DNA from: a virus
Strand: one strand, 5' to 3'
DNA length: 60,888 nucleotides
IMG/VR virus record: IMGVR_UViG_3300012683_000002
Location: 1 to 60,888 of that record
Shown here: positions 3,109 to 35,121 of the stretch, piece after piece
Layout: each line of letters starts with the position of its first letter
Numbering within the stretch: the stretch's first letter is position 1
Notes under the pieces: generated by a model
What the model was told of the DNA's origin: nothing
Databases searched by the model: none
The model's input: only the letters and a program-made list of their open reading frames with translations
Translations under genes and position numbers: made by a program

Positions 3109-3656
3109 GATACACCATCATCACTCCGACCCTTGGACGCGAAAGCCTCGTTCGTACATGCGAGTCGGTTGACCGGCAAACGACAGACGACTGGCAGCAT
3201 ATTGTCGTCGTGGACAAGAAAACAGACCCTGAGATTCTCGTCCAAATCTATCGTAGTCATCGCCTAATAATTCACTGCGGACTGCCGCACGGGAACTTTG
3301 GGAACACATGCCGCCACAACGCTTGGGAATTCGCAGAAGGCGAGTATCTGTTGTACCTCGATGACGACAACTGGTTATCGGACGACCATGTGCTAGAAGA
3401 CTTGAATGTAGTCGTTACCCCGTGGGCTCTCTTCCCAATCCTGCGGCACGGCAACCGATTTTTTACCGACCCTCCAAAGTGCTGTCACGTAGACACCGCG
3501 AACGTGGTGGTCAGCCGGGACATTGGCCGATGGCCCGACATCCCGGACTACACGGCTGACGGCCAGTTTGTCGAATCGCTTCTCAAGTATCCCTACCAAG
3601 CGTTTCCAGATTTCCGGACGATTGTCGTTATGCCACATTCGAGTGAGGGACGATGA
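3105..3656 (+). CDS. Glycosyltransferase, GT-A fold (GT2-like), short
   Basis: 183 residues from ATG 3105 (ATGA overlap, GAAGGA upstream). The opening TIITPTLGRESLVRTCESV is a classical GT-A nucleotide-binding beginning, and YLLYLDDDNWLSDD supplies the metal-binding DxD region. At 183 residues it covers only the catalytic core, shorter than usual GT2 enzymes, and lacks a membrane segment, so it should act in the cytosol. It probably works with the flanking transferases to build one oligosaccharide. Function class is clear; substrate is unknown. Confidence 0.8.
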   Translation: MRYTIITPTLGRESLVRTCESVDRQTTDDWQHIVVVDKKTDPEILVQIYRSHRLIIHCGLPHGNFGNTCRHNAWEFAEGEYLLYLDDDNWLSDDHVLEDLNVVVTPWALFPILRHGNRFFTDPPKCCHVDTANVVVSRDIGRWPDIPDYTADGQFVESLLKYPYQAFPDFRTIVVMPHSSEGR

Positions 3657-4318
3657 AGGACTTGCTCGTCATCCTCTGCTCCAGCGGCGCACGCGGGTTT
3701 CAAGAAAAGTATGTCGAGCAAATGCTTGAAGCTGGGATTCAAGTGCGCGTGGAACTATTAGAGGAGTTCCCGAACTCGAACGGTGGAGGAACGCTCGGAC
3801 ATCAAGTCCAGGGTCAGCGTGCGTTAGCTAGGGAGTGTTCCGAATATCAAAAACTAGTTTTCACCGACGCTTTTGACGTTCTATTTTATGGAACCAAAGA
3901 AGACGTGATTCGTAAGATCCCGGACGGTCACGTATTACTGGCCGCTGAGCGCAACTGCTATCCCGACCAATCCCTTGCCTCGACCTTCCCCGGAACGACC
4001 GCGTGGCGCTACGTTAATGGTGGAATGATGTGCGGCAGGCCGGAGCGCATCCTAGAGTGGCTGGACGAGATCGAGCGGCATCCGCTATACGATCCGAACG
4101 GACTGAATCAGCGCTTCTTTAATCTGCTTCGCCATAACGGTTCTTCGCTCATTCCGATCGACGAGCGCACCGAACTTTTCTATTGCCTGTTTTTGGAGCA
4201 GAGCGAACTTGCGTTCGAGAATGGTCTTCCGGTGAATACGGTTCTCGGGACACATCCAAATTTTATCCACGCAAACGGCAAGTGGGGATGGCCGGATTGT
4301 GTGGGGAGGACGCTATGA
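3653..4318 (+). CDS. Glycosyltransferase resembling procollagen-type (PLOD-like) enzymes
   Basis: 221 residues from ATG 3653 (ATGA overlap, GAGGGA just upstream). The motif LVFTDAFDVLFYG, followed by LLAAERNCYPDQS, matches the donor-binding core of the glucosyl/galactosyltransferase domain in lysyl-hydroxylase-type enzymes, where the Asp residues bind metal and UDP-sugar. YVNGGMMCG matches the later conserved Gly-rich strand. These enzymes usually glycosylate protein side chains, which hints that a virion or host protein may be the acceptor; that is inference. Third of four coupled glycosyltransferases. Confidence 0.75.
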   Translation: MKDLLVILCSSGARGFQEKYVEQMLEAGIQVRVELLEEFPNSNGGGTLGHQVQGQRALARECSEYQKLVFTDAFDVLFYGTKEDVIRKIPDGHVLLAAERNCYPDQSLASTFPGTTAWRYVNGGMMCGRPERILEWLDEIERHPLYDPNGLNQRFFNLLRHNGSSLIPIDERTELFYCLFLEQSELAFENGLPVNTVLGTHPNFIHANGKWGWPDCVGRTL

Positions 4319-5061
4319 ATGCAGCGCTCATGCTTACCCATAACTGCCTTGAGATGACGAAACGGTGTATCGAGTCGGTTAGGAAACAATACATTCCGAT
4401 GAGAATTATTGTTGGTGACAACGGTTCGACTGATGGAACCCTTGACTGGTTGAAATCTAATGACATTGAAGTGATGTTCAAGTCGTCGCTTACCATGCCG
4501 TTGAATCTTGGAGTAAGTAAGGGGTGGAATATAAGTCTTGAGTATCTGTTCAACTTCCATGCTGAAGTTCTCTTGGTCAACAACGACGTGGTTCTTCCGC
4601 CGTGGTTCTACAGCGAACTGCTCTCCTACGATGTTCCGTTCGTAACCGGCGTCTCGGTTGATAACATGGATGCAATTCGGGAACGAACACCGCGAGCGCC
4701 TCTCGTCGGTCATCCCGACTTCAGCGCGTTCCTGATTCGCCGCGATGCGTGGGACAAGATAGGCCCATTCGATGAAGGCATGAAGTTCTACGCGCAGGAC
4801 TGCGACTATCATGTGCGAGCGGTAAAAACTGGAGTGCCTCTACTGGCCGCGAATCTGCCGTTTTATCACGAGCGCAGCTCGACGCTGCGTCTCGCTTCCC
4901 CGGAAGAACAAGCGGCCATCCAACAGCAGGCGAATGCGGATCGCGCGTACTTTCGTCGCAAGTGGGGATTCGAGGTTGGTTCGGAAGAATATCAGGCTGC
5001 GACCCGGACTGAAGGTTGGGGTGGCTGCGCTGACTCCCCCGACAAAATAAAATTGGCATGA
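4315..5061 (+). CDS. Glycosyltransferase family 2
   Basis: 248 residues from ATG 4315, with a strong GGGGAGGA site and ATGA overlap. The N terminus (LTHNCLEMTKRCIESV ... VGDNGSTDGTLDWL) is typical GT2, VNNDVVLPPWF is the metal-binding NDD region, and FLIRRDAWDKIGPFDEG followed by DCDYHVRA carries the acceptor loop and catalytic acid. It resembles rhamnosyl- and similar surface-glycan transferases. It ends the cluster; the next 35 bases hold the portal promoter. Confidence 0.88.
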   Translation: MNAALMLTHNCLEMTKRCIESVRKQYIPMRIIVGDNGSTDGTLDWLKSNDIEVMFKSSLTMPLNLGVSKGWNISLEYLFNFHAEVLLVNNDVVLPPWFYSELLSYDVPFVTGVSVDNMDAIRERTPRAPLVGHPDFSAFLIRRDAWDKIGPFDEGMKFYAQDCDYHVRAVKTGVPLLAANLPFYHERSSTLRLASPEEQAAIQQQANADRAYFRRKWGFEVGSEEYQAATRTEGWGGCADSPDKIKLA

Positions 5062-11629: not shown

Positions 11630-11664
11630 ATGGCGGCGGCTTGCGGGAGCCGTCGCCATTTTTT
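11630..11664 (+). terminator. Rho-independent terminator inside head operon
   Basis: Arms ATGGCGGCGGCT (11630-11641) and AGCCGTCGCCAT (11648-11659) pair over 12 bp with one G-U, enclosing TGCGGG, and are followed by five Ts. It sits between capsid-associated genes and the adaptor gene. The true start of the next gene is ATG 11678, with GGAG upstream, not the ATG inside this stem. Confidence 0.85.
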
Positions 11665-11677
11665 ATGGAGATGTTTT

Positions 11678-12694
11678 ATGTCGTGGGTAAGCATGGCAAA
11701 GACGATAGCTCTCGAAGTCCCTGGAGTCTCGCAGCCTCTTGCCAGCAACAAACTCAACGAAGCGCTCAAGAAAATCTACGATGAAACTGATTGGTCGTTC
11801 CAAACCCAGCAGGCTGGATGGAATTGTCCTGGCCTCATGGCGAACGTAGGAACGGTTACGGCTAATCCGTACACGTCAGTCGTCATTGGGGATGCTGCGG
11901 CAAGCGCGGCATGGGCGGCTTTAACGGGACGCCCGTTCTTGACAGAGTTGCAGTTTCGGAATCCTCCATACGCGCTCTACAACATCATTGCCTACAATCC
12001 GAACGGTGCCCCTCCGTTTGCCACATTAACTCTTGACCGCCCGTGGATGGAGCCAACCATCGGAGCGGGACAGCCGTACTACATCTATCAGGCGTACTTT
12101 CCCGTTCCCGTGTCGGACTTCACGAAGTTCATCGAGATCCGCGATACGACGAACAACGCGCCCGTGGACTTCACGAAAGTCTCGCAGGATGACCTCTCGG
12201 TCCTCGACGCGCAACGCCTGATCTTTGGACCAGCGGTTCCCACCTACGCCGTGCCTTGGGGAATAGATATGCGTCCGGGCAGTTCGACGCTCGGGAACAT
12301 CATGTACGAACTGTGGCCGCACAATTTGTCGCACATGCCGTACAGCTTTAGCTACAAACGCAGTGGTCCGCTGTTTGTGAATCCTTCCGATGTTGCGCCG
12401 TACCCGATCAGTGAAGAGTTGATTAAGTGCCGCGCGAAAGAGGTTCTGTATCTTTACAAGGAAGCGCAAAAAGGCGAAGAAATGCAGCGCGGATCGGGCG
12501 CGGATTGGAAGTTTCTGGCGCAAGCTGCCGCGAAAGAGCACCAAGCGCTCCTGAAGCAGATCCGAGCAAAGGATGCGAACCTGCATCGCGACTTCCTCAC
12601 GCACTCACGTTCTGGGTTAACATCGCAGGCGACGAACGACGGATATTCCACGGAAACGCTCGGCTTGTTGAATGTCGGTCGTGCCAACTGGTAG
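11678..12694 (+). CDS. Putative head-tail adaptor protein
   Basis: 338 residues from ATG 11678. The N-terminal helix (LASNKLNEALKKIYDETDWSF) and the following beta region resemble adaptor proteins that dock beneath the portal in short-tailed phages. The C terminus is helical and charged (KEHQALLKQIRAKDANLHRDFL). It is the first gene after the terminator and is followed by a small beta protein. Identification is by position and secondary-structure style. Confidence 0.5.
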   Translation: MSWVSMAKTIALEVPGVSQPLASNKLNEALKKIYDETDWSFQTQQAGWNCPGLMANVGTVTANPYTSVVIGDAAASAAWAALTGRPFLTELQFRNPPYALYNIIAYNPNGAPPFATLTLDRPWMEPTIGAGQPYYIYQAYFPVPVSDFTKFIEIRDTTNNAPVDFTKVSQDDLSVLDAQRLIFGPAVPTYAVPWGIDMRPGSSTLGNIMYELWPHNLSHMPYSFSYKRSGPLFVNPSDVAPYPISEELIKCRAKEVLYLYKEAQKGEEMQRGSGADWKFLAQAAAKEHQALLKQIRAKDANLHRDFLTHSRSGLTSQATNDGYSTETLGLLNVGRANW

Positions 12695-12703
12695 GAGGAA
12701 AGC

Positions 12704-13066
12704 ATGAATTGCGCCACTATTACGATTACTGACATCACGAAGCCCGCGCAGAGTTTGTATACGCTTCTTTCCGTAGGCTCGCAACCGGGATATACGGTAA
12801 GTCCTGCTGGCGGGATCTTCCCCGCAATCAGCATCATTGGATCGGTCAGTTACTTGTCTGTCCAAGCATCTCCTACTAATAGTACCCAGACAGTGTACAA
12901 GGGAGACGAAAACACGAAGACAGATGGGAGTTTGCAAGGCAAGGAAATGGCGGCGGGGAGCACGGATGTGATCCAAGCCTATCCGCATCAAGTTGACTTG
13001 AATACCACCTTCTTGAGAGCGAGCGCCAACGGAGCAAAAATCAATGTGGAAGTCCACTACGCTTAA
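12704..13066 (+). CDS. Hypothetical structural protein
   Basis: 120 residues with GGAGGAAA upstream. It is beta-rich, with a Thr/Ser-rich profile and an ending (INVEVHYA) typical of virion proteins. Its 3' end overlaps the next gene by 23 bases in another frame. Function unknown. Confidence 0.55.
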   Translation: MNCATITITDITKPAQSLYTLLSVGSQPGYTVSPAGGIFPAISIIGSVSYLSVQASPTNSTQTVYKGDENTKTDGSLQGKEMAAGSTDVIQAYPHQVDLNTTFLRASANGAKINVEVHYA

Positions 13067-15683
13067 AAAGACTTTATGTTGCCTGTTTGTGTTCTTGGGC
13101 AGCGTTTACGCCCAATTCAGTTCGCCGCAGGTGGCCTATGTTTCGTCTGCTCCATCTGGATCGTGTAGCGCTACCCCACCTTTGCAAGTTGTCGTAAGCA
13201 CTGGCGCTATCTATTCCTGCAACAACGGAACATGGGGGCAGAGCGGAGGTAGCGGCGGTGCCAGCGGGGGCACGGCATTAAACGCCAATCTGCCTTACGT
13301 CCCTACGGAATCGACGACTCCTCTCACCGAAAATTACGGAGCCTACATCATTGAAGGCCAGTCGAGCGTCTTTCCCGATGGCACGTTAGTTATCACGTAC
13401 CGGCAAGGAGCGCAAGAGACTTCAAATGACGGTGTGTGCAAACTGCAAACCTCGACCGACCAAGGCCAGACTTGGAGCGCCCAATCGACCATTGCGTCTT
13501 TAGGCGGTGCTGACGTTCGAGCTTGCACTGGCGGAGTTACCCCGACAGGCCGGTTAGTGCTGTTCTACCGGATCATCACATCCGGGGTATTCACTTCACA
13601 GGACTACATTTACTCCGACGACAAAGGTGTTACGTGGTCCGCTCCCGTGGTGATGAACATTGCGCCTGGAACCGCTGCCCAACCTTACGGCGGAATGATC
13701 GTACTTGGAAATGGCGTTTTACAAGCCTCGTTTTATTCCACGGATGCAGTACCTACCAATTACTCACAGGTAACTCGCAGCACTGATAATGGGGTAACGT
13801 GGTCCGCTCCAATTACCGTCGTTGGTTCAACTACTAATCAATTTACTGAAGGGACATTCATCTACCTTGGTGGCAGCGTAGTGTTTGGGTTACTTCGTTG
13901 TGATAACAATAACCGTGAAATGGAACAAGTTATCAGTAAGGACAATGGTCTTACGTGGACGGACGTAGGCGCGTTCACGCCGAGTATCAACACTGGGCCA
14001 CTCGGCTACAATCCGTGGCTTTCGACTTACGTAGCGCCTAATGGTAGACGCATTGTAGAAGTGATTTATCCTGACCGTGGGGCGCAATTGATCTACGCCA
14101 TGTACGGCGAAGCGACCCAGCTTATTGCAGGCGTTGCAGGTACTCCGACATCGCTAGGGTGGTCACCGAACAGCACGGTTGTGGTTGGTGTCCCAAACGT
14201 CGCTACCGCAGTCTCGTCCGTCACCATCAATAGTTCGACGCAAGCTACGTTGACGGTCACTTCGACTGCCAGTTTCGTTGCCGGGGCACCAATCACTATC
14301 ACTGGGTTATCGGGCTCAGCCGCGCCGATAAACAGCCCAGCTAGTCCGAGCAACACGATGACGGTTACGTCCATCACAAACGCAACCACGATTGTTGTGC
14401 AGAGCATCACAGGCGGTTACACCGCAGGCGGTCCTTTCGGAGCGCAAGCCGGAACGCTTACCCAAGTGTCAAGCGATAACGTCCACTTCGGTTATCCGAG
14501 TGTGGTTCACCCGAACAATGGCGCAGCGGGAATTGGCCTTTACTACGACTGGGTAAGTACCAGCGTCACGGTAGCCCGGTTCTTCACCGTGCCGGTTAAC
14601 ACTACCGACTTAATCCTATACGGAACCGCACCGACCCTGCGCTTCGGGGGTTCATCCGGTACGGGCTCATCGTCGATCATCGGGGCAACAGGCGCGGCTA
14701 CAAACGCCTTCACATTTTCTAACCCCACATTGGTTAACACTCCCGGCACAGTGGCCAATCCTGCCATTCGCATCGGCGGCGTCGGCACCCCCGTTGGTTT
14801 GTACACCAGAAGCGGCACCATCGGCTTCGTTGCCAGTGGGGCGAGTTGGTTGGAGTCCGCTTCGACTACGACCGTCTGGCTTTCGGGAGCAACGCTTGCT
14901 TGGGCGTCTTCCCCTACCAACGTACTTGCCGCCGCTGATACTGCTTTTAGCCGTGATGCCGCAGGTGTAGTGGACATTGGTACAGGGGCGCAAGGCAGCA
15001 AAGCAGGAAGTTTGAGGTTTACTGGTGAAATCCAAGTTGAGGAGGCCGCGCCTGCTGGAGTAGCTTCTTCCTCAGTTGAATACGCGGACTCCACGCAACA
15101 TGCGATGGAGGTCAATAACAACAGCACTGGCGCGATGCCGATCTCTCGTCTCGGCTGCATGAGCGTGGTCCCAACTACGGTAGCTGTGAGCACGGCAAGC
15201 GACCAAAACTTGCAAGCGTGCTCCCTGAGCGCGAATTTGTTGAACGTCGCGGGACGAACTTTAAAAGTATTTCTGGCAGGTGTCTATTCCAACGTCGTCA
15301 CCGCGCAGCCTACAGTCGCACTGAAAATCAAACTGTGTACTGTTTCAGGGTGCGGAAGCGGAGTGGTCATTACCCCAATTAGCATCGTTTCAACCGTCAC
15401 CGCGGCTACCGCCGTCAGCAATTTGGCCGCGAATTTGACGGGATATATTTCGACGCAGACCGCTGGCGCTTCTTCCGCTTATGAAGCGCACGGAAGTTTG
15501 GCGATTGACCTTGGGACCACGGGCCTAGTTGCCGATTCCGTGTTTGCCGATACCAACACTGCTACGGTCGGCACAATTGATTCAACCGGAGCGCTTTTCC
15601 TGCAAGCCGTCGTAGCCTTTAGTGGAGCCAGTTCCAGCAACTCCTTCACTTCTCGGCAGTTGATTGTGGAAGTGCTGAATTAA
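13044..15683 (+). CDS. Secreted sialidase-like (Asp-box) propeller protein
   Basis: 879 residues. Residues 1-23 form a clear Sec signal peptide (KKTLCCLFVFLGSVYA, cut before Gln). Four Asp boxes of the S-x-D-x-G-x-x-W type lie at about 137-144, 191-198, 246-253 and 298-305, the hallmark of sialidase-type six-bladed propellers. The C-terminal half is Ser/Thr/Ala/Val-rich beta structure. GGAG lies nine bases upstream of ATG 13044. The catalytic arginines of a true sialidase were not verified, so it may cut a host glycan or only bind it. A signal peptide is abnormal for a tail protein; the three following genes have one too. Confidence 0.75.
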   Translation: MWKSTTLKKTLCCLFVFLGSVYAQFSSPQVAYVSSAPSGSCSATPPLQVVVSTGAIYSCNNGTWGQSGGSGGASGGTALNANLPYVPTESTTPLTENYGAYIIEGQSSVFPDGTLVITYRQGAQETSNDGVCKLQTSTDQGQTWSAQSTIASLGGADVRACTGGVTPTGRLVLFYRIITSGVFTSQDYIYSDDKGVTWSAPVVMNIAPGTAAQPYGGMIVLGNGVLQASFYSTDAVPTNYSQVTRSTDNGVTWSAPITVVGSTTNQFTEGTFIYLGGSVVFGLLRCDNNNREMEQVISKDNGLTWTDVGAFTPSINTGPLGYNPWLSTYVAPNGRRIVEVIYPDRGAQLIYAMYGEATQLIAGVAGTPTSLGWSPNSTVVVGVPNVATAVSSVTINSSTQATLTVTSTASFVAGAPITITGLSGSAAPINSPASPSNTMTVTSITNATTIVVQSITGGYTAGGPFGAQAGTLTQVSSDNVHFGYPSVVHPNNGAAGIGLYYDWVSTSVTVARFFTVPVNTTDLILYGTAPTLRFGGSSGTGSSSIIGATGAATNAFTFSNPTLVNTPGTVANPAIRIGGVGTPVGLYTRSGTIGFVASGASWLESASTTTVWLSGATLAWASSPTNVLAAADTAFSRDAAGVVDIGTGAQGSKAGSLRFTGEIQVEEAAPAGVASSSVEYADSTQHAMEVNNNSTGAMPISRLGCMSVVPTTVAVSTASDQNLQACSLSANLLNVAGRTLKVFLAGVYSNVVTAQPTVALKIKLCTVSGCGSGVVITPISIVSTVTAATAVSNLAANLTGYISTQTAGASSAYEAHGSLAIDLGTTGLVADSVFADTNTATVGTIDSTGALFLQAVVAFSGASSSNSFTSRQLIVEVLN

Positions 15684-15684
15684 A

Positions 15685-17778
15685 ATGAAGCGACTTCTCA
15701 TCCTCGCGGTTCTCCTCTTACCCGTAACGGCTCACGCGCAGACCAATGTCGCCTTTAACGGCCAGTGTCAAAAAGGTGGGCAGGCAACGGTTACGCAAGG
15801 GTTGCCGAGTAGTGGAACCCAGCCGCTTACGGGAACGCCATTCTCTGCCGGGACGGGCGTGATGGCTTCGTATCCGGGATGCCAGGTAGCCGTGTTCTTG
15901 ACGGGAACTACCAATCCAGCCGTCATCTTCTCCGACATTATCGGCACGCCACTTGCGAATCCCTTCACCGCAAACACGGATGGCTCATACCTGTTTTTCG
16001 CTTCAGCGGGAACCGCGTACGACATCACGCTCTCTGGTGCCGGGTTGCCTGCTCCAGTCACGCTTACTGATGTATCTCTTGGCGGCGGAGCTGGCGGAGG
16101 AGGGGTAGGCTTCGTGGCGTTGACGGTCCCAAACGGCTTCGCTATCGCTGGCTCCCCAGTCACGCCTCCTGGCGGCGTGTTGAACATCACGACGACCGGA
16201 ACTCCAAATTTGGTGCAAAAAGCGATTGCTGGAGGTTTTGGGAACTCGCAGATCACGGATGATGGCATCAACCCGACTGTATCTCCTCTCGGGTTTGACG
16301 TATTCACCAGCGGAATTTTCGGCTTCCAAGTGCCTAACAATGCAGTTACGGGTACAACCAACAACACGACCGCTTGCGACGATGGCACGGGGCACGCCAT
16401 CATCTGCCCACACGCGACCTCAACCACAAACGTTGTAGCGGGCTTCACCTTTTCCGGTGGCGGAACCACGGGCAATGCACGGATCGCGATGCTCGGCTGG
16501 CCAACTGTCACCTTCGACAACCAGACGACCGCGCGTGACTATGCCATAAATTCGGCGACAGTCGATGGTCAGTTGCACGATACTGGGAGTGCGGTGCCTC
16601 CCGCTGGGCAGCCCTTCTACTTTGTTTGGACGGCGAATACGGGTGCGGGAACGGCTGGACAGATCCGCATGTTGCTCGCGAACGATTTCAACAACGCCTC
16701 GCCAACTGCGGTTTATAACCTGCAAGTGAACGCTGCTCCCCTAACACCCGGAGACACGGTTAACTTCAATGCGACAACGCCAGCGGTTCCGAGCAACGGC
16801 TATGCCATCACGCCTGCAACCTCGAAGTCTGGAAATACAGATTCGGTCAGCAATGCCCTGATTGGCGACGGCAACGTAGCGCACTGCTTCCTCGGTACGG
16901 GAGTGTTCGCGACTTGTCCCGGTAGCGGTGGACTGATTAACCCAATGACCACACTCGGGGACATGATCTACGAGAACGCGACCCCGGCAGCGGCACGGTT
17001 AGCGGGAGCGACGACACCGAACGGCCTCGCGCAAGTTTACGTTTCCATCCCTTCTGGTGGACTCGCCACGGCACCTGTACTCGCTCTGCCTGGAGTTGTT
17101 GGACGCGCCATCACCGGAACCACGGCAACCGATACCATCGCGACAACCGACTGCGGTCCCAAGCGCATCGAGTATGTTGGTTCGGTCGCGGTGGCTGTGA
17201 CTCTTCCCACCGCGACCACGCTAGCGGTTCCAAATTGCGTCTTTCGGCTCGCAAACAATCTCAGCACCGTCAACGATCTCACAGTGACGACGACGACTTG
17301 GACGTGCAACGGCGCGGCAACGTGTGTCATTCACAATGGACAAATCGCGACTTTCTACGTCGATCCGAACAGTTCAACAAATTGGGTAGCGGACATTGCC
17401 GAGCAAGGCCTAACGGCGGGATCTGGAGTGACTCTCACGCGCACGGCCACGGGTATAAGTGTGGCCGCTACGGGCAGTGGCGGCACAACGGTTACTGTCG
17501 CTAGCGGAACCTCGACGATGGGGACTGGCGCAATCACGAGCGGAACCTGCGCCACGGCAGTTACAACCTCAGCAACCGGAACGGCAACAACGGACACTTT
17601 CATCGCTACGCCAAATGTCGATCCCACGGGTGTATCTGGATACGGGCCATCAGCTTCCGGGAGTCTATATGTGCAGGCATACCCCAGTAGTAACAACGTT
17701 AACTTCAAAGTTTGCAATAACACTGGCGGGTCGATTACCCCGGCGGCACTAACGTTCAACTGGAAGGTATTGCGATGA
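15685..17778 (+). CDS. Tail-fibre-like protein with Sec signal peptide
   Basis: 697 residues. The N terminus KRLLILAVLLLPVTAHA is a signal peptide ending in an AxA site. Next comes a fibre-type domain (about 50-130: NPFTANTDGSYLFFASAGTA then YDITLSG), as found in many phage baseplate and fibre proteins, then low-complexity Thr/Gly/Ala-rich beta repeats to the end. The gene starts one base after the preceding stop and ends in an ATGA overlap. It probably binds host glycans. Whether it is secreted, or the signal is a relic of a bacterial ancestor, is open. Confidence 0.65.
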   Translation: MKRLLILAVLLLPVTAHAQTNVAFNGQCQKGGQATVTQGLPSSGTQPLTGTPFSAGTGVMASYPGCQVAVFLTGTTNPAVIFSDIIGTPLANPFTANTDGSYLFFASAGTAYDITLSGAGLPAPVTLTDVSLGGGAGGGGVGFVALTVPNGFAIAGSPVTPPGGVLNITTTGTPNLVQKAIAGGFGNSQITDDGINPTVSPLGFDVFTSGIFGFQVPNNAVTGTTNNTTACDDGTGHAIICPHATSTTNVVAGFTFSGGGTTGNARIAMLGWPTVTFDNQTTARDYAINSATVDGQLHDTGSAVPPAGQPFYFVWTANTGAGTAGQIRMLLANDFNNASPTAVYNLQVNAAPLTPGDTVNFNATTPAVPSNGYAITPATSKSGNTDSVSNALIGDGNVAHCFLGTGVFATCPGSGGLINPMTTLGDMIYENATPAAARLAGATTPNGLAQVYVSIPSGGLATAPVLALPGVVGRAITGTTATDTIATTDCGPKRIEYVGSVAVAVTLPTATTLAVPNCVFRLANNLSTVNDLTVTTTTWTCNGAATCVIHNGQIATFYVDPNSSTNWVADIAEQGLTAGSGVTLTRTATGISVAATGSGGTTVTVASGTSTMGTGAITSGTCATAVTTSATGTATTDTFIATPNVDPTGVSGYGPSASGSLYVQAYPSSNNVNFKVCNNTGGSITPAALTFNWKVLR

Positions 17779-19013
17779 AACGGATGCTACTCGCGTTCCT
17801 TCTCTTCTGTGGATTAGCTTTAGTTTCCTCGCTCGCTGCTGGGCAAGTTAGCGGGAGTGGCGTCCCTATTTTGGGAAGTACTCAAGGGGCAACGGGTATC
17901 GGTGCTTGCGGAGCGGCAACGGGCTACACGAATACTGACACTATTACTATTTCCGCTCAGGGGTCGCTAGGAGCGGATCTGCCAAACAATTGGGTTACTT
18001 ACTTTGCCGGAAATGCTCTTCTAAAATCTACAGGCAATGGCGGCCAGTTATTATCTTCGGGAACTGATGTTGTATTCTGCACGGCGAATAATGGCACCGG
18101 AACGATCATCCCATATTACTTCGTCCCGAACAGTTGGTCGGCTACGACGGGTGCGGGGGAGTGGTATTTTCAGGCTCCATGTATCAAGAAAAGCTCAACG
18201 TGTCTTGCCTATTTATACACGGGTAAATCTAGCGCGGTGGATTTATCTTGTGGTCCAAGCGGAACGAACAACTGTAAGACGACGTTATTTGCCAGCAAGT
18301 ATCTCCGAGCTTATGACTTTGGCGGAGTCTCCGGGGGAACGCTCTCCTTTACGGATGAAACTACGAATGCTGCTTCACCCACCAATCATGGTGCGATTTC
18401 TGCGGCCGGAGAAATTAACAATGCCACCAACTACACAGGCGGCAGTAGCCAGTGGACGGATACAGGAAGTACGCTAGGTGCGCTGACAAACTTTTCTATC
18501 GAAACTTGGTTTAACGCTGTACAACCGGCAGGGTCTCAAGTTATTTCTCCAATGGGCGACTTAGATAATGGGGGTACAGTCGGCATCTACATGATCGGAA
18601 TTGGCACCGGCGGAGCTTCCTGCACTAATGGTACTTGTATGGGGTTTGGATATAAAACGTCTGGTTCTAATTATTGGCAAGGCTGGTGCAATATCAATAA
18701 TCTCAATCCTACTGGTTGGCATCACATGGTCGGTTCTCATACAGGGGGAAGTTCAAATTTTACGTTTTATTTAGATGGAGTTACTTGCTCTGTTACCGCT
18801 GGCGGCGGGGCTACTGGTAGCCCGGTTGATCCATCTACCAGTAGCATCACCTTTGCTCTCGGAAGACTTGCTAGTTTTTCGTCGCCTTTCTACTACAGCG
18901 GCAGTCTTGATGTAACGCGGGTTATGAACTTCGCCATGACCGCCGATGAAGCGCTATTTGACAATCTCAACCAATCGAGCCCGACCAGCACGTATACGGT
19001 TTCCACACCCTAA
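17775..19013 (+). CDS. Secreted LamG-like lectin protein
   Basis: 412 residues with signal peptide KRMLLAFLLFCGLALVSS and an alanine/glycine cleavage region near 22. The C-terminal half holds a LamG/concanavalin jelly roll: FSIETWFNAV, then GWHHMVGSH and FTFYLDGV, ending in SGSLDVTRVMNFAMTADEA. Such domains bind carbohydrates. It has a good GGAAGG site and overlaps both neighbours. Third of four signal-bearing genes in a row. Confidence 0.72.
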   Translation: MKRMLLAFLLFCGLALVSSLAAGQVSGSGVPILGSTQGATGIGACGAATGYTNTDTITISAQGSLGADLPNNWVTYFAGNALLKSTGNGGQLLSSGTDVVFCTANNGTGTIIPYYFVPNSWSATTGAGEWYFQAPCIKKSSTCLAYLYTGKSSAVDLSCGPSGTNNCKTTLFASKYLRAYDFGGVSGGTLSFTDETTNAASPTNHGAISAAGEINNATNYTGGSSQWTDTGSTLGALTNFSIETWFNAVQPAGSQVISPMGDLDNGGTVGIYMIGIGTGGASCTNGTCMGFGYKTSGSNYWQGWCNINNLNPTGWHHMVGSHTGGSSNFTFYLDGVTCSVTAGGGATGSPVDPSTSSITFALGRLASFSSPFYYSGSLDVTRVMNFAMTADEALFDNLNQSSPTSTYTVSTP

Positions 19014-22000
19014 TGAGACAGTTGCTCGCCATCCTCGCGCTGTGCGGTTGTTGTCTAGTTCTCCCGGTCAGTGCAACGGTTTGGAACGTCAAGACGAACT
19101 GCGGAGCTACGGGCAACGGATCGACCAACGATACCGCTGCCGTGAATACCTGCATTGGCGATCTGACGAGTGGCGACACGCTCTACTTCCCATCCGGAAC
19201 TTATTTGGTATCCCATCTCACGACCATTAGTGCGCTCTCGAATATCGTCGTATATGGCGACAGTCAGGCGTTGAGCATCATCAAGGGAAGCGCTTCTGGC
19301 GTGATCTGGCAGATTGGAGCGGCTACTCTAAGCACGGGTACGGCCAGTGTTCCGAGTGGAAACGTCTTGCTCGCTTCAACCTCTGATCTTTCGAGTTCAT
19401 TCACCGTAGGCAGTACCTTCGCTTCCACTCTCTCACCTGGAAACTTGATTTATCTATGGCAAGGCGGAGCGGATGGAAACTGTTCGCCGTCGAATACCGC
19501 GCAGTGTGATTCTGGAGGTCAAGCTACAGCCGTAGGATGCGAAGTGGATGGATGCCGTTCGGAAGTGGCTAAAGTCGCCTCCGTCTCCGGTACCACCGTG
19601 ACGGTTATTCGACCGCTCAACAACCCTTATAACCCATCCGTCAACCTGGCAGGTGTGGCGAAAATCAATGGTGTTTTGGCCGGGATCAATATCCACGATC
19701 TCACGTTCGACGGAGCAAGCACGGCCAACGTCGGCCTCTACCTCGTCGGAACCGATGGGTTGCTCGTCAATAACCTAACGGCTAAGAACACCATCGGCGC
19801 TGGATTCTCTTGCGGGGCTTCTGGGCAAACCGTCTGCGGCTGGCAACCAACAATCTCGAATATTACCGAAACAGCGACGGGAAGCAACGGCGGTTTCCCT
19901 TCCCCTGGCGGCTCGGCCTTCGTGGTCGCTTTGACGGGGTATCCCACCGTCAGCAACGTCACACTTTCCAGCCTCAACACAAACGCCTTTGGCGTGCAGC
20001 TTGGCATGTCGGGCGGGGCGGTGATGAATAACATTAGCGTGGATAAGACGGGAGGCACAGCAGGACGAGGAATCAAGCAATCAGCCGGAGCTCACACCGT
20101 CTGGAACAACGTAACCGTCACGAACGCCCCAGCAGGCTACGAGTGCGCCGACGTAACGTACTACTCGCATCACGTCACTTATATCGGAGGCATCTTTTCC
20201 GGCTGCAACACCATCGGCATTGATGGCTTTGGCAACTTCAACGACTTCCTCACTCTTATCAACGTGACTATGACGGTAGGAGCGAACGGCTCTTTGGTGA
20301 ACTTCGTTCCCGGAGCCTCTGGGCTCGGCCGGCGCGACATCAATACGACAGTCAGCGGCGGCACGTTTTCCGGCACGTCTGGGTTCGAGGAGATCCAAGC
20401 CTTCGGCAATAACGCCTACATACACGGCGCGACCATCGGCGCTGGCACGAATGGGATCAACATCAGCAGCGTGGCAACAACTGGAAACTGCATCAACAAT
20501 AATACCTTCGTAGCAGGACTCGGCTATGCCTATGCCGGTTCTGGTTCGACCGGAAAAGCCAATGGCAATGTGTTTAACGGCAACTCAGTGACGGGAGCGT
20601 TTGTAACGGGAGCGTGCGCGACTACATTCCTTCCCCTTAGTCTTGGATTTGGTTCCCAAGTAGTCGGATCGAGCAGCGCCGCGCAAGCCATCACACTGAC
20701 GAACAGCACCGCATCGTCCGTGACCATTAGTGAAGTAACGGCGACTGGGGATTATTCCCAAACCAATAACTGTGGAACGCTAGCGAGCAATGCGAGTTGT
20801 AGCATCAATGTCACCTTTACCCCGAGTGCCACTGGAACCCGGAGCGGATACTTACTAGCCTATCCCACTACGACTGGTGGGACGGCAACCATTCCTCTAA
20901 GCGGCAATGGATCGACTTCGTCCTGTTCCATGCCGAATCCCTGCGCCTACAACGGGACGGATGTGGTGTCATGGTCCACCGCTCCAAATTTGGGAAACGC
21001 CATAAATAACGGGCTGACCGTCTTCGATACGAGTTTTCTTGGTAGTGGCTGCGCTGGCGGTGTTTGCCACAACTTCGACGGCTCGGCTTTCACCAACTCT
21101 TCCTTACTGAGTCCGATCACCAGACTTACCGACTCTAAGTCGGTTCCCGGCGTCACGAACGGTACCTTCGTTGCTGGACAAGGCGGCTCGGGCGTCATCG
21201 TCGCCACCAATACAAATACTAGCTTGGTCGGTTTCAGTGGCAATGGTCCGGAATATGTGTGCCTCTTCAACACAGCGACGGGACACTGTTCTGGAATCGG
21301 AACGGGAATCGCCATCCCGACTTCGTTCAATAACGCTGGCGGCGGCTCGGCAAACGTGGGGGAGAATTTCGGCTCAATCTTCTTTTCGCTCACTGATCCA
21401 ACTGTGCTCTATGCCTTCGGCAATAACACCGATGTGACGCTCCCAACAACGGTCACGCCTTACAGCATCAACACGACGACCGGCAAGTACACAGTCGGAT
21501 TTCCGACAAAGAATGCATCCATCGTTGATTTCAAATATGGCCTACCGCTCGGCGCAGCCAACGCTCCCAACTGGCAAGCTAGTCATGCCTACCATTACGG
21601 CGATTATGTCACTCACCAATTGACTTCGGCGGAGATGGCGCGTGGCACGGGAATCCGAGCGGCAAGTACGGCCTACGCTCTTGGCGACATTGTGACCCAA
21701 AACGGCACGGCAGGAACGTGCATGTACAAGGTCACGGTCGCTGGCACATCGTCCTCCGGTGCGGCCCCAGCGTTTCTCGCGAGCGGATGCAAACTCGATA
21801 CCCTGTCCGATGGCGCAACTCTGAAGTGGCACGGCACGGCCTCAACCGCGCAGTTCACGTATCAGAACACCGGGGCGAACGGAGTGTTGTCGAACGCCTC
21901 TGTGTTCCAGTGGATTCATTCTCCGGTGACGCTTTCTACCAACACCTGCTCGATGCCGTTAAATTCGGCGGTGCTGACTTGTACGAACGCTCCATTCACC

Positions 22001-25000
22001 GCTTCGATGGTCGGACAAACCATCAGCGTGACAGGCGCGGGAGCGTCGGGGGGAGTTCTTTACGCTACCATCCTGACTTTTACCAGTTCTACTGTAGTCT
22101 CGCTTGCGTTCCCGGCTACGACCGCTGCGACGACGACGAGCGCTTCGTTGACTGGGCATCCCGACTTACTCTCGCAAGTCATTGACGCGAACGGCATCGT
22201 TTGGACGAATGTGGGGACAAATTATATTCCCACGCTCGGTTCGCAGGCATGGGCGGCGGCGGCGGGAGTCAGCCGGGATTCCAGTTATCCGGGTACGTCG
22301 TATAGCGGTAAGTACGGCATGGCACTCTCAACCAACAGTTACGGCGACAATTATCCGAATGGGGGATACTCCAAATACAACAGCGACCAAGACACCGGAA
22401 TTTGGGCCTTGGAATACGATGCTGTCACTAATATTTATCACTTGCTCAACACGGGAACCGGCATTTGGACGGATTGGTCTTGCTCAGGCGGCACGGGTTA
22501 TAGCTGTACAGGTGGAACGCGGACGCCCTCAGTCATCGGGACGATGACGAACATCGTAAACCCGGCAGGAGTGACTCCAGTTACCGGGATTACGACCCAA
22601 GCTTGTCCGTACTACATCCACAACGAGAAGATGTCGAAGAACGGCAACCACGAAGTTTTAACCACGCATGTTGTTTATCCCGCTTGCAACCCGCTGCAAA
22701 ACTTTGAAGTCTGGCAACCGCTGACTTCGGTATTTCCGTTCGACGCGCTTAATTCACTTCAGATCACGTTCTTTGGCCTGAACCACTGGGATATTGGCAC
22801 TGATAAGATTATGGCCTTCAGCCCAGGGGGATGGGGGAGTGGATCATTCCTCAGCATCTATGACGCCTCGAAGGCCTCGACGCAAGCGAACTTCTCGACC
22901 TTCCTAAAGCCGAACGTCAACTTGAGTCCGCCGCCGTATCCGGAAGGGTGCCATACGGTCTCTGGAACGAATCCTGACTGCACGCTCGGCAATGTTCTTG
23001 ATTCCCATTTGAGTGTGTCAGGAGATCACGGCAATGACCTGTATCCCGCCTGTGGTACTACGTATAACTACAAGACGCTTGGCCCTGCGATAAACGCGTG
23101 GCAGAACAAAGAGACGTGTTATCCAGTTACTCCCTCGTTTAATTCCGTCCAAGCGAACAGCGTGAATCCAGTCTGGCAGTTCTCGAACGACTTCAACACG
23201 CACACGAGCACAACTTTCTCCACGCAATTTTCGGTTAGCGAGTACTCACAAGATGCCCAATGGTTATTCTGGTCAAGCGACTGGAATTGCGGCAACGGCT
23301 CAACTACTGGCGTAGCGCCTAGCGTGTGGGCGAGCGGAACACATATCGGATTCTTGGCGGTTCCCGCAGTCCCAGCCAGTCCATCAAGCCTCTGCGGCTT
23401 GCCGTGGGCGGCGGCGAATACCTACGTTGTCGGGAACCTCATTAACCCGATTGAAGGCACTAGCGGTAGCGGCCAAGTGGACGACGTATTCCAAGCCATC
23501 TACGTGAACGGGAAATCTGGGCCGCAATCATCGTTAAGCGGCTTCCAGCCGAAGTGCGGAACGGTGTCATGCTTCACCGCCACGACTGCTCCAACGGTGT
23601 CGGCTGCGGGTAGCACGCTCTGCGACAACCAAAACTACAACGGAACGACGCAGTTAAATACCCTCAATCCCGCACTACCTTATTCAACGAGCTGCCCGAA
23701 TGGAAATGTATGGCAGGATCTCGGGCCACAAACCGGTCGCGGCGATGTCTTCGCGGCGAAACTCACTCCGACAGGCGGGGCTCCTAACCTCGCAGCTACT
23801 CCAGTCTGCTCTCCTGGAACAGGGACATACACAACAACCCAGTCGGTAACGTGCACAGACGCGAGCGTCGGCGCGATTATGTGTTTCAGCACCAACGGTT
23901 CGACGCCTGCCACAAACGGTTCGACGGGCTGCGCCTCCGGAACTCTATACTCCACAGCCATCAGTGTGGCGAGTTCGGAGACATTAAGGGTCATCGCTGG
24001 CGGGACTGGATACCTCGATAGCTCGATTGCCAGTTATATCTATACGATCAACCCTGTGGCCGCAACTCCGGTCTGCTCCCCGGTCGGAGGCACATACACT
24101 TCCACGCAGACGGTTTCCTGCACGGATTCTTCTGTTGGCTCCATCATGTGCTTCACGACAAACGGGAGTACCCCGGCAACCAATGGGACGACTGGCTGCA
24201 CAGCAGGAAGTGTTTATTTTGGAAGCATCACCGTAGCGATTTCGGAAACCTTGAAGGTCGTCGCTGGAGGGTCTGGGTTCACGGATGGCAGCGTGGCTTC
24301 TTACGCTTACGTCATCAATTTCCCTACGGCAGCGACTCCTACCTTCTCTCCCGTCGCAGGGACGTATAATCCAACCCAATCGGTGACGATCAGCACCACG
24401 AGTCCGGGAGCGATTCTCTGCTGGAATACGACGGGCTCTCCCGCAACGAATGGCATTACGGGCTGCACAACAGGCACTCTGTATTCCGGCCCAGTGAGCG
24501 TCGGTGTGAGCGAGACACTCTATGCCGTCGCGGGTGGGTCTGGATACGTCGATAGCAGCGTAGGCTCAGCCGCGTATGTCATCAAACTTCCGGCAGCAAC
24601 TCCGGTCTGCACGCCTGGGACGGGTTCCTACACGGCCGCGCAATCTGTAACCTGCACCGACTCGTCAAGCGGCGCAATCATGTGCTACACGACCAGCGGT
24701 ACGACGCCTGCGACAAACGGGACTTCTGGCTGTACAGCGGGGACGCTGTACTCGGGAGCCATCGCCATCTCCGGCTCGTCAACACTGAAAGTGATTGGTG
24801 GTGGCACGGCTTATATCGACGGGCCTGTGGGCTCATTTGTCTACACCATAAATTTCCCGACCATAGCCGCTACGCCATCGTGTTCGCCCGTTGGTGGTAC
24901 GTACACTTCGACGCAATCCGTAACCTGCACCGACAGCTCCTCGGGTGCCGTCATGTGCTATACCGTGAACGGCTCCACACCCGCCACAAATGGTTCGACG

Positions 25001-26239
25001 GGCTGCACAACCGGGATTCTCTATTCGGGTGCGATCAGCGTGGCTTCTACCGAGACGCTCAAAATCATCGCCGGTGGCACGAGCTATGTGGATAGTTCGA
25101 TTGCAACCTACGCTTACACTATCAACCCAGTAGCGGCTACGCCCTCGTGCTCCCCGGTCGCAGGCACATATGCCTCGCCACAGTCAGCGACCTGCACGGA
25201 TGCCTCTTCTGGGTCGATTATGTGTTACACGACAAACGGAGGCACGCCAGCCACGAATGGCACGAGCGGCTGTACGGCGGGAACTCTCTATTCGGGAGCT
25301 ATTTCTGTTGCGATTTCGGAGACCTTGAAAGTCATTGGCGGTGGCACTGGCTACACCGATGGTTCTGTCGCTTCCTACGCGTATGTGATTACGGTTCCGA
25401 CCGCAGCGGCCACACCTTCGTGCTCCCCGGTGGGCGCGACATACACTGTTTCACAGTCTGTAAGTTGCACGGACGCAAGTGCGGGAGCCGTGATGTGCTA
25501 TACCACGAACGGCACAACGCCTAGCACGAACGGAGTTAGCGGTTGCACGACAGGCACCTTATACTCGACCGCCATCTCGATTTCTACGACCCAAACGCTT
25601 AAAGTCATTGCAGGCGGGACAAGTTACCTCGACAGTCTGGTCGCGACGAACGCCTACGTGATTAGTCCTATCGCAGCCACGCCAGTTTGCTCTCCGATTG
25701 CCGGGTCGTATGCTTCGGCGCAGTCAGTGACGTGTACCGATGCGAGTTCCGGGGCGGTGATGTGCTTCACGACAAACGGCGCGACTCCGGCGACTAATTC
25801 AGTATCCGGGTGTACGACCGGGACGGTCTATAGTGGCGTGATCGCAGTCGCCTCGTCGCAGACCATTAAAATTATTGCTGGTGGAACGGGCTATACCGAT
25901 GGCACGGTGGCTTCTTACACCTATGTAATAAACGGGCAACCCGTCGCACCTGTAACCAGCTTATTTGCACGAGTCGTCAAGTGGAAGGGCGGAATACAGT
26001 TGACTTGGATTAAGCCCGTGCCGCAGCCGGATGTGAGCGTTAATTCCTATAGCGTGTGGCGCGGCTCGAATCCATTACTTCCAAATCCGAGCAAGATAGC
26101 GACCGTCATTCCAACTTCCTACTTCGATAAGCATTGTCGCGGGGTATGCTGTTATGAGGTCAGAGCTAACGACACGGTAGGAACCGTGCCGACAGCCGTG
26201 GTTAGTGGGCCGAGTAATATCGCGTGCGTAAGCAATTAG
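19013..26239 (+). CDS. Giant secreted beta-helix protein with eight chitobiase-C-terminal-type repeats
   Basis: 2408 residues. Signal peptide 1-21 (RQLLAILALCGCCLVLPVSA). About 22-540 is a pectate-lyase-3-type right-handed beta helix (CGATGNGSTNDTAAVNTCI, DTLYFPSGTYLV). About 545-635 is a choice-of-anchor-D-like domain (SLGFGSQVVGSSS, then CSINVTFTPSATGTRSG). About 640-1590 is a long mixed region. About 1593-2307 holds eight repeats of about 89 residues of the chitobiase/hexosaminidase C-terminal type. About 2310-2408 resembles fibronectin III. It is by far the longest gene and probably the main surface-polysaccharide-binding or -cutting protein. Such modules are typical of secreted acidobacterial proteins. 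Confidence 0.78.
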   Translation: MRQLLAILALCGCCLVLPVSATVWNVKTNCGATGNGSTNDTAAVNTCIGDLTSGDTLYFPSGTYLVSHLTTISALSNIVVYGDSQALSIIKGSASGVIWQIGAATLSTGTASVPSGNVLLASTSDLSSSFTVGSTFASTLSPGNLIYLWQGGADGNCSPSNTAQCDSGGQATAVGCEVDGCRSEVAKVASVSGTTVTVIRPLNNPYNPSVNLAGVAKINGVLAGINIHDLTFDGASTANVGLYLVGTDGLLVNNLTAKNTIGAGFSCGASGQTVCGWQPTISNITETATGSNGGFPSPGGSAFVVALTGYPTVSNVTLSSLNTNAFGVQLGMSGGAVMNNISVDKTGGTAGRGIKQSAGAHTVWNNVTVTNAPAGYECADVTYYSHHVTYIGGIFSGCNTIGIDGFGNFNDFLTLINVTMTVGANGSLVNFVPGASGLGRRDINTTVSGGTFSGTSGFEEIQAFGNNAYIHGATIGAGTNGINISSVATTGNCINNNTFVAGLGYAYAGSGSTGKANGNVFNGNSVTGAFVTGACATTFLPLSLGFGSQVVGSSSAAQAITLTNSTASSVTISEVTATGDYSQTNNCGTLASNASCSINVTFTPSATGTRSGYLLAYPTTTGGTATIPLSGNGSTSSCSMPNPCAYNGTDVVSWSTAPNLGNAINNGLTVFDTSFLGSGCAGGVCHNFDGSAFTNSSLLSPITRLTDSKSVPGVTNGTFVAGQGGSGVIVATNTNTSLVGFSGNGPEYVCLFNTATGHCSGIGTGIAIPTSFNNAGGGSANVGENFGSIFFSLTDPTVLYAFGNNTDVTLPTTVTPYSINTTTGKYTVGFPTKNASIVDFKYGLPLGAANAPNWQASHAYHYGDYVTHQLTSAEMARGTGIRAASTAYALGDIVTQNGTAGTCMYKVTVAGTSSSGAAPAFLASGCKLDTLSDGATLKWHGTASTAQFTYQNTGANGVLSNASVFQWIHSPVTLSTNTCSMPLNSAVLTCTNAPFTASMVGQTISVTGAGASGGVLYATILTFTSSTVVSLAFPATTAATTTSASLTGHPDLLSQVIDANGIVWTNVGTNYIPTLGSQAWAAAAGVSRDSSYPGTSYSGKYGMALSTNSYGDNYPNGGYSKYNSDQDTGIWALEYDAVTNIYHLLNTGTGIWTDWSCSGGTGYSCTGGTRTPSVIGTMTNIVNPAGVTPVTGITTQACPYYIHNEKMSKNGNHEVLTTHVVYPACNPLQNFEVWQPLTSVFPFDALNSLQITFFGLNHWDIGTDKIMAFSPGGWGSGSFLSIYDASKASTQANFSTFLKPNVNLSPPPYPEGCHTVSGTNPDCTLGNVLDSHLSVSGDHGNDLYPACGTTYNYKTLGPAINAWQNKETCYPVTPSFNSVQANSVNPVWQFSNDFNTHTSTTFSTQFSVSEYSQDAQWLFWSSDWNCGNGSTTGVAPSVWASGTHIGFLAVPAVPASPSSLCGLPWAAANTYVVGNLINPIEGTSGSGQVDDVFQAIYVNGKSGPQSSLSGFQPKCGTVSCFTATTAPTVSAAGSTLCDNQNYNGTTQLNTLNPALPYSTSCPNGNVWQDLGPQTGRGDVFAAKLTPTGGAPNLAATPVCSPGTGTYTTTQSVTCTDASVGAIMCFSTNGSTPATNGSTGCASGTLYSTAISVASSETLRVIAGGTGYLDSSIASYIYTINPVAATPVCSPVGGTYTSTQTVSCTDSSVGSIMCFTTNGSTPATNGTTGCTAGSVYFGSITVAISETLKVVAGGSGFTDGSVASYAYVINFPTAATPTFSPVAGTYNPTQSVTISTTSPGAILCWNTTGSPATNGITGCTTGTLYSGPVSVGVSETLYAVAGGSGYVDSSVGSAAYVIKLPAATPVCTPGTGSYTAAQSVTCTDSSSGAIMCYTTSGTTPATNGTSGCTAGTLYSGAIAISGSSTLKVIGGGTAYIDGPVGSFVYTINFPTIAATPSCSPVGGTYTSTQSVTCTDSSSGAVMCYTVNGSTPATNGSTGCTTGILYSGAISVASTETLKIIAGGTSYVDSSIATYAYTINPVAATPSCSPVAGTYASPQSATCTDASSGSIMCYTTNGGTPATNGTSGCTAGTLYSGAISVAISETLKVIGGGTGYTDGSVASYAYVITVPTAAATPSCSPVGATYTVSQSVSCTDASAGAVMCYTTNGTTPSTNGVSGCTTGTLYSTAISISTTQTLKVIAGGTSYLDSLVATNAYVISPIAATPVCSPIAGSYASAQSVTCTDASSGAVMCFTTNGATPATNSVSGCTTGTVYSGVIAVASSQTIKIIAGGTGYTDGTVASYTYVINGQPVAPVTSLFARVVKWKGGIQLTWIKPVPQPDVSVNSYSVWRGSNPLLPNPSKIATVIPTSYFDKHCRGVCCYEVRANDTVGTVPTAVVSGPSNIACVSN
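23792..25935 (+). repeat. Eight in-frame protein-domain repeats (~268 bp each)
   Basis: Each unit begins AATPxCSP, continues TYTxxQSVxCTD, then MCYTTNGxTPATNG and TGYxDGSVASYxY. The units are clearly related but diverged at the DNA level. The third lacks several of the cysteines found in the others (it reads AATPTFSPVAGTYN). Unit count and order come from reading the translation. Confidence 0.85.
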
Positions 26240-27650: not shown

Positions 27651-28025
27651 ATGAAACGCATCATCGCACTACTCGCGCTCTCACTCATGCTAGGGTGTTC
27701 GCAGAACCCGAAGCCTGTTGTTGGAGCAGCAAATCAGTTTGACTCCGACACTTATCTCACTCTGGTCACAACCGACAGCGTGATTCAGAACACGAAAGCC
27801 GCCCTCACCGCTAATCAGTTCCCGGCGAACGTAGTAACCAACGTGAGAGCCGCACTCAACAGGTTGATTGACGCTTACGACGCCGCCGATACGGTCTATA
27901 TCGTCTATCACAACGCAGCTCTGGCGGGGCAATCGACTCCAGCGCAGCAAGCCGCCGTCAATACTGCGGTGGGTAACGTACAGGGAGCGACCACCATGCT
28001 GGTCGCAGCGAAGGCAGGGCAGTGA
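27651..28025 (+). CDS. Lipoprotein of lysis cassette, possible outer spanin
   Basis: 124 residues with a lipobox signal (KRIIALLALSLMLGC, lipidated Cys at 16). AAAGGAG lies upstream of the ATG. The mature part is Ala/Thr/Val-rich and helical. Directly after the endolysin, so an outer spanin is possible, but it is longer and less Pro-rich than usual; a surface-exclusion lipoprotein is the alternative. Confidence 0.65.
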   Translation: MKRIIALLALSLMLGCSQNPKPVVGAANQFDSDTYLTLVTTDSVIQNTKAALTANQFPANVVTNVRAALNRLIDAYDAADTVYIVYHNAALAGQSTPAQQAAVNTAVGNVQGATTMLVAAKAGQ

Positions 28026-34314: not shown

Positions 34315-35121
34315 ATGAGCACGAATCTGCCTTCGTTTCGGCTTCCTTTCACGCTCCCGGATGACGTGCATCCTGCGGTCAAGGATGCCATGCGGCTTAC
34401 CTACCAAGGCGTAGTCGATCTCAACCAAGCGATTGCGGCCTTAAATCCAAAAGTCACTTCCAATACGAGCGCAATCGCCTCGGCCTTAGCATCCATCAAC
34501 ATCATCAATGCGGCTGCCAGCGGCACGACTCCTCCACTGCCAAGCTCAGGCATGGTCAACCAGCAGTCCGGGACAACGTATTCCCTACGGAACAGTGACT
34601 TTGGGAAGCTCGTCGTTTTGAATAACGCCGCACCGGTCGCAGTGACGCTCGATGCTGGGTTGGTCACGGTGCCGTTTTATTGCGTCATCGAGAACGTCGG
34701 AGCGGGGATAGCAACGCTGATCCCAGCCACGGGAACGGTCAACAATATCGGTTCGGAGACGATTGCTCCAGGTGGCTCGGCTCTCATCTTTTTCGATGGC
34801 ATCAATTTCTGGATGACCACCATGCCTCCGCAGACCTTCGCGGCGGTGACGAATGAATGGATCTACAGCTACGACGCGAGAACGGGACTGTTCGCGGCAA
34901 AGCAGCCGTGCGCCAGGAATTTATGCGATAGCACGACGGGAAGCGGACACGTCGTACTTGACAGCGGTCCAACGATAAACAATGGAACCTTTACGGGAGT
35001 CACGAGTTTGCCGGGATTGCAGATATTCGCGAACAACAGTGCAGCAATCTCTGGTGGGCTCGTAGCAGGCAATCTTTACAGGACTGGGGCTAACCCAGAT
35101 TTTATTGCGGTGGTCCACTAG
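34315..35121 (+). CDS. Short tail fibre or tail tip protein
   Basis: 268 residues. Starts on the base after the previous stop. A helical start (VHPAVKDAMRLTYQGVVDLNQ) with a coiled-coil-like stretch is followed by a beta domain (PVAVTLDAGLVTVPFYCVIE), the layout of many trimeric fibre proteins. Ends with a typical fibre terminus (ANPDFIAVVH). Receptor binding is inferred. Confidence 0.55.
   Translation: MSTNLPSFRLPFTLPDDVHPAVKDAMRLTYQGVVDLNQAIAALNPKVTSNTSAIASALASINIINAAASGTTPPLPSSGMVNQQSGTTYSLRNSDFGKLVVLNNAAPVAVTLDAGLVTVPFYCVIENVGAGIATLIPATGTVNNIGSETIAPGGSALIFFDGINFWMTTMPPQTFAAVTNEWIYSYDARTGLFAAKQPCARNLCDSTTGSGHVVLDSGPTINNGTFTGVTSLPGLQIFANNSAAISGGLVAGNLYRTGANPDFIAVVH

Follow-up and report, generated by a model that had tools for sequence, protein, structure and literature searches.

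The 60,888-nucleotide viral record IMGVR_UViG_3300012683_000002 (the window, meaning the whole stretch of DNA that was analysed) carries, in its tail module, a cassette of four consecutive large genes whose products bear export signals of the cleavable type, and these products are, on balance, probably exported tailspikes or receptor-binding proteins of an Acidobacteriota-type podovirus that afterwards join the virions. Signals were called by a rule-based script, with internal in-frame start codons as the null. The script called a signal on 4/4 cassette genes versus 13/2839 internal in-frame start codons (0.46%), consistent with the initial annotation, which had described four consecutive giants with Sec signal peptides. 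Essentially no calls were made among the other virion genes of the window or among those of Tunturi 2, an isolated phage discussed below. Each of the four leaders contained a basic n-region, a hydrophobic core and a signal-peptidase-I-type site, and this n-h-c architecture with an A-x-A site, for which cleavage is predicted, was found by the rule-based caller and by family anchoring. The possibility raised with the initial annotation, that the true starts lie after the hydrophobic segments, did not hold up, because in none of the four genes did a start codon past these segments have a better ribosome-binding site; wrong start codons were ruled out on this ground. Taken at the level of sequence, the presence of cleavable-type export signals on the four products is strongly supported, and export as such is highly probable.

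The window covers a phage genome in full, with a 123-bp repeat common to both ends and a terminase frame that continues across them. The four genes (879, 697, 412 and 2408 residues), all on the plus strand and each started by ATG, sit between the conserved tail gene with a 120-residue gene on one side and, on the other, the genes for lysis, with the endolysin at 27174. Coupling by overlaps of a few bases, as proposed in the initial annotation, was found for genes 2 and 3 (4 bases) and genes 3 and 4 (1 base), whereas genes 1 and 2 are separated by one base. Of the domain labels given there, Pfam supported the sialidase-like one of gene 1, which contains Asp-box repeats (sialidase activity is putative), and the LamG one of gene 3. 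The beta-helix ascribed to the 2408-residue protein was not found with Pfam, which matched only chitobiase-C-terminal-type repeats, eight in number and most of them holding 4 cysteines in the repeat listing. The Tunturi 2 counterpart of gene 4 gave a weak beta-helix match. PHROGs returned zero matches for the four cassette proteins, and NCBIfam yielded nothing useful.

Comparison of the leaders with the residues that follow them placed the beginning of conservation at the predicted cleavage site. Five phages of the gene 1 family had QF[GS]S as a common mature N-terminus behind differing leaders. A second family was provided by gene B, the neighbour in relatives of the gene that carries the gene 2 C-terminal domain (linked PGPG family). 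PGPG lay inside the first 60 residues in 27/39 gene B proteins; in 23 proteins that had a Q as anchor, PGPG stood at an offset of 4-8 residues from this Q (standard deviation 1.0), and the leader measured 11-29 residues (standard deviation 4.1). In an alignment of 12 gene B proteins, the start Met, the cleavage-site A-Q and PGPG were strictly invariant and nothing else was. The mature motif QxxxPxPGPG was the sole conserved part of these proteins (e.g. L033:4509-5426), as expected for a docking peptide. The predicted export route was also found to be exchanged. The mature start QGGMGPGPGTVHSTGGGG was identical in locus L029, behind the twin-arginine translocation (Tat) leader MDRRRFLKTAAGL...KARA, and in L033, behind the Sec leader MKRLISIAIAFFLSLTGAVFA, and Tat export was predicted from the twin-arginine motifs MDRRRFLK in L029 and PRRKLLR in L030. 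These Tat-type leaders stood at L029:7270-8091 and L030:10330-11037, positions filled by Sec leaders in relatives. In L018 (9289) and L033 (5426), gene C likewise looked Tat-like. Exchange of the route in front of an unchanged mature N-terminus makes little sense unless selection acts on export and cleavage, and the sequences indicate that export has been maintained under selection. The idea that LTALTAASALGGTEL after the signals in L025 and L035 is a common phage-fibre N-terminus gained no confirmation in a search and was not used.

An unbiased bait, the conserved, signal-free and non-fibre tail gene that precedes the cassette, was used to collect relatives. The check proposed with the initial annotation, whether related phages keep the signals, had a positive outcome, since all bait relatives at 32-80% identity that covered the downstream region had 1-4 signal-bearing genes directly behind the tail gene, and the signals were also kept in Tunturi 1 and 2. 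In distant relatives (23-30% identity), signal genes were mostly missing directly behind the tail gene; in the distant long contigs that were read (G001-G004), signal-bearing giants occurred elsewhere, with four in a row in G002. The signal-bearing genes in the long relatives read were the large cysteine-rich, adhesin-like ones. Tunturi 1 and 2, isolated podoviruses of Tunturiibacter (Acidobacteriota; PP887698 and PP885685), had the corresponding block at the same location, with script-called signals on gp12, gp13, gp14 and gp17; gp16 was called a lipoprotein by the script, and its MRYLYALLIMMSCPLANA^QW is readable as an ordinary signal too. Tunturi 1/2 gp12-gp17 (PMC11924767) resembled the window in layout and in the signal-bearing block, and gp12 contained the gene 2 N-terminal domain; the body domains were different, as was the C-terminus of gp12 compared with that of gene 2. 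The tail fibre genes of Tunturi 3, whose host strain is the same as that of the compared phages Tunturi 1 and 2, and of Tunturi 4 (sister species) had no signals. Export therefore belongs to this module and is not something that the host requires; a host-imposed need was rejected because the fibres of Tunturi 3, which shares the host strain, are signal-free. Confinement of the module to a single phage lineage was also rejected, because it occurred in viral contigs with other tail modules and in bacterial contigs.

The two ends of gene 2 gave a similar picture. Its C-terminal domain was found at 35 viral loci on otherwise unrelated bodies; 30 of the 32 loci with an intact 5' end had script-called signals, and the leaders of L005 and L017 were evident by eye. 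In some relatives, the start was placed inside the longest open reading frame to obtain the leader. The N-terminal domain was found in 7 other loci, with a leader immediately before the domain in 7/7. A search of INPHARED with the gene 2 domain matched only Tunturi 1/2, and INPHARED contained zero isolates for the linked genes A and B, two fibre N-termini and two further mature N-termini. Judged by these predicted signals, the signal-bearing block is not a quirk of the window genome, and runs of such genes recur across relatives.

Two virion-type N-terminal modules, a head-binding-type domain and a collar-fibre motif, were located immediately after a cleavable-type signal. A model of the N-terminal domain of gene 2 had a predicted local distance difference test score (pLDDT) of 69 overall and 79-91 across most of residues 50-110. 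The top four Foldseek matches in the PDB were tail-machine proteins of the cyanopodophages Pan3 and Pam1, with the P22 tail complex and tailspike head-binding domain ranked lower in the list. A profile search against PDB sequences matched the same stretch to the Pan3 tail spike (E 0.0012) and the Pam1 tailspike head-binding domain (E 0.13), and 28 matches at E<=1e-3 were obtained in BFVD, the named ones being mostly phage tail spikes, pectate-lyase-like proteins and depolymerases. In the Pan3 and Pam1 counterparts, the domain lies at about residue 20 of the chain and a leader is absent. The second module, GLNxPxxGTxTWDxPLNxNFxxID, followed the signal in Tunturi gp13 and in a G006 protein (29-34% identity) and also opened a signal-free Collar-domain fibre in L032. 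The modelled C-terminal domain of gene 2 bore a weak likeness in fold to tailspike C-termini and H-type lectins, and its profile matched nothing meaningful in the PDB. The cassette thus resembles P22/Pam1/Pan3-type podophage tailspikes in its position in the tail module, in the head-binding-type domain at the mature N-terminus of gene 2 and, weakly, in the C-terminal domain of gene 2. Unlike gene 2, in which a cleavable-type signal comes first, the known tailspikes begin with the domain and are cytoplasmic, and the cysteine content of the cassette is several-fold above that of other virion proteins.

Cysteine accounted for 2.39% of the mature signal-bearing proteins of the window versus 0.50% of the other virion proteins, and for 2.09% versus 0.41% in Tunturi 2, percentages in which the residues are not independent. 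The signal-free tail genes had 0.25% (Tunturi 3) and 0.37% (Tunturi 4). Both end domains of gene 2 contained conserved cysteine pairs. In a broader per-gene test the difference was weaker (median 1.87% versus 1.05%, p 2e-4). This composition makes it reasonable to suppose that the proteins fold oxidatively in the periplasm.

Tailed-phage morphogenesis is taught as wholly cytoplasmic. Our results suggest that the large host-binding tail proteins of a family of soil phages, two cultivated phages of Acidobacteriota among them, leave the cytoplasm before joining the particle, unlike those of the textbook tailed phage. In the proposed sequence of events, the cassette would be translated late from a coupled operon, and its products would cross the inner membrane through Sec or, in some relatives, through Tat. 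Cleavage by signal peptidase I would expose the conserved mature N-terminus, and disulfides would form in the periplasm within the cysteine-rich beta domains. By homology, the mature spikes may then dock on DNA-filled particles or tails in the periplasm or at lysis, when membranes and wall are breached, with gene 2 docking through its head-binding-type domain. The finished virion would bear BNR, LamG, lectin-like and repeat domains to bind and cut host glycans. Attachment of the cassette proteins to virions is itself suggested by homology. The more general proposal, that a large group of tailed phages completes its virions outside the cytoplasm with the whole spike set exported by Sec or Tat, oxidatively folded, exposed at its docking N-terminus and attached in the periplasm or at lysis, is put forward tentatively.

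The main rival is that the four products are secreted effectors which never enter the virion and which work at the cell surface or in the matrix, where they would degrade extracellular polysaccharide, mask receptors against superinfection or ease the release of progeny. The initial annotation had left the choice between export of glycan-active proteins and assembly of tail fibres outside the membrane undecided; its export part was strongly supported by conserved, cleavage-site-anchored and Sec/Tat-swapped signals, and the evidence leaned toward tail fibres because of the head-binding-type domain and the Tunturi 2 paralog with an N-terminus like that of the collar fibre. Real export signals and glycan-active domains would also be expected of secreted effectors. 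Secreted action outside the virion keeps some probability because related operons lie on bacterial chromosomes without phage genes: signal-bearing, spike-like A-B-C operons were found at L048:5029-11735 (Bryobacterales), adjoining sugar-nucleotide/polysaccharide genes, and at L051:7496-13811 (Terriglobia), and no phage genes were recognised within the flanks examined (the gene names around both operons are our reading of the sequences). Also in favour of this rival is WceF of Pantoea, a tailspike-like glycosidase exported by Tat that acts as an exopolysaccharide enzyme (PMC7949094); it shares with the cassette a tailspike fold on an export signal, but it is bacterial and not phage-encoded. However, the cassette is inside and coupled to the tail module in most relatives, a podophage head-binding-type domain lies directly behind the gene 2 signal, a fibre N-terminal motif is common with the signal-free collar fibre, and the signal-bearing genes in the long relatives read are precisely the large adhesin-like ones. 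Secretion without virion attachment is therefore judged rather unlikely.

Several further points weigh, together with the bacterial operons, against exported tailspikes. The match to the head-binding domain was modest (Foldseek E 1.7e-3, TM score about 0.5, with the model quality given above) and concerned gene 2 only, and genes 1, 3 and 4 are without a shown virion anchor. A fibre-like protein without a signal is also encoded in the window (34315-35121), and receptor binding may therefore not be left to the cassette alone. The cysteine excess was partly driven by repeats, gene 4 contributing 72/103 cysteines, and the content fell to 1.6% without gene 4. VKOR was found in only 1/3 host-type metagenome-assembled genomes. 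The terms signal peptide, mass spectrometry, SDS-PAGE and structural protein were absent from the main text of the report on Tunturi isolation (PMC11924767).

The remaining alternatives are weaker still. If the signals were real but inefficient, a cytoplasmic pool could be built into virions in the ordinary way, which would retain standard cytoplasmic assembly, and dual localisation is known for weak signals; such leaky export is improbable, given strong signals whose hydrophobic cores are long and whose A-x-A sites are clean, a conserved sequence that begins at the cleaved N-terminus, and a cysteine content that fits an oxidising compartment. The hydrophobic N-termini could also serve virion proteins as uncleaved anchors or membrane-active segments, since hydrophobicity at the N-terminus is not by itself proof of cleavage, but this is very improbable, as the leader sequence is variable while the site and the following residues are conserved, RRxFLK Tat leaders substitute for Sec leaders, and the similar Pan3 and Pam1 domains near residue 20 have no leader. 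Chance or wrong start codons, conceivable for metagenomic open reading frames of which some need a start inside the longest frame, are already contradicted by the 4/4 calls against the null, the absence of a better alternative start and the signals kept in isolates and dozens of loci, and deserve almost no credence.

Table. Features of the cassette and its upstream neighbours in the window (^ precedes the first residue of the predicted mature protein)
Feature	Position	Strand	Remarks
Conserved tail gene, without signal	11630..12694	+	upstream of cassette; homolog of Tunturi gp11 'tail protein'; marker for relatives
Short conserved virion-module gene, 120 aa, without signal	12704..13066	+	overlaps gene 1 by 23 bases
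Gene 1, 879 aa, BNR/Asp-box (sialidase-like)	13044..15683	+	BNR region about 13380-13970; Pfam BNR_2 E 5e-17, BNR E 7.5e-8
Gene 1 signal peptide MWKSTTLKKTLCCLFVFLGSVYA^Q	13044..13112	+	script call; mature QF[SG]S kept in L042, L044, L067, L090
Gene 2, 697 aa, predicted tailspike/fibre	15685..17778	+	domain architecture
Gene 2 signal peptide MKRLLILAVLLLPVTAHA^Q	15685..15738	+	script call
Gene 2 N-terminal domain, tailspike head-binding-type, conserved Cys pair	15739..16110	+	Foldseek, hidden Markov model, BFVD, alignments A4/A6
Gene 2 C-terminal domain, ~100 aa beta-sandwich, nearly invariant Cys pair	17473..17775	+	pLDDT 94
Gene 3, 412 aa	17775..19013	+	LamG/ConA-like lectin domain about 18447-18950; Pfam Laminin_G_3 E 3e-10
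Gene 3 signal peptide MKRMLLAFLLFCGLALVSSLAAG^Q	17775..17843	+	site ambiguous; script cuts earlier
Gene 4, 2408 aa	19013..26239	+	eight chitobiase-C-terminal-type repeats about 23807-25940; Pfam CHB_HEX_C_1 E 1e-60
Gene 4 signal peptide MRQLLAILALCGCCLVLPVSA^T	19013..19075	+	script call

Further genes, some with export signals, were noted outside the cassette. A predicted lipoprotein directly behind the endolysin (27651-28025, plus strand) could be an outer-membrane spanin, and its export signal would then be an ordinary one. The gene at 40667-41143 (minus strand), outside the tail module, encodes a signal peptide and a C-terminal PEP-CTERM motif (Pfam PF07589 over the cut-off), and the one at 52818-53552 (minus strand) encodes a PAP2-family phosphatase-like membrane protein (PF14378, E 2e-19). 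Glycosyltransferase genes of family 1 and family 2 lie between terminase and portal (1900-5061, plus strand), and similar genes occupy the corresponding place in L044, L046 and L047. In Tunturi 2, gp79 (L055:28010-29209, minus strand), annotated 'tail protein', is a predicted lipoprotein with MNTKILLLSLLLTG^C.

Full-text searches, with subscription journals outside their reach, turned up no account of signal peptides on the tailspikes or fibres that tailed phages carry. Phage use of host Sec is established for endolysins such as Lys44 of fOg44 and for signal-arrest-release (SAR) endolysins (PMC6116005), which are likewise phage proteins on host Sec but are lysis enzymes and not receptor-binding or structural proteins. 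In architecture, the cassette can be likened to the MAT fibres of Bdellovibrio, phage-fibre-like adhesins in which a signal peptide is followed by a conserved beta-rich domain of ~130 aa (PMC10769870), although those are bacterial surface proteins with no virion. A missing signal peptide has been taken as a sign of phage, not bacterial, origin for a variable binding protein (PMC6199706), and if exported tailspikes are the true reading, a conserved, route-swappable signal on tailspike-type proteins would break this rule. Because Tunturi 1 and 2 are cultivated, and Tunturi 3 with its signal-free fibres grows on the same strain, the proposal is directly testable. If true, it would explain disulfide-rich phage adhesins, would alter the way in which receptor-binding proteins are identified in viromes, and would point to an evolutionary link from phage spikes to the spike-like proteins that bacteria export, or the reverse.

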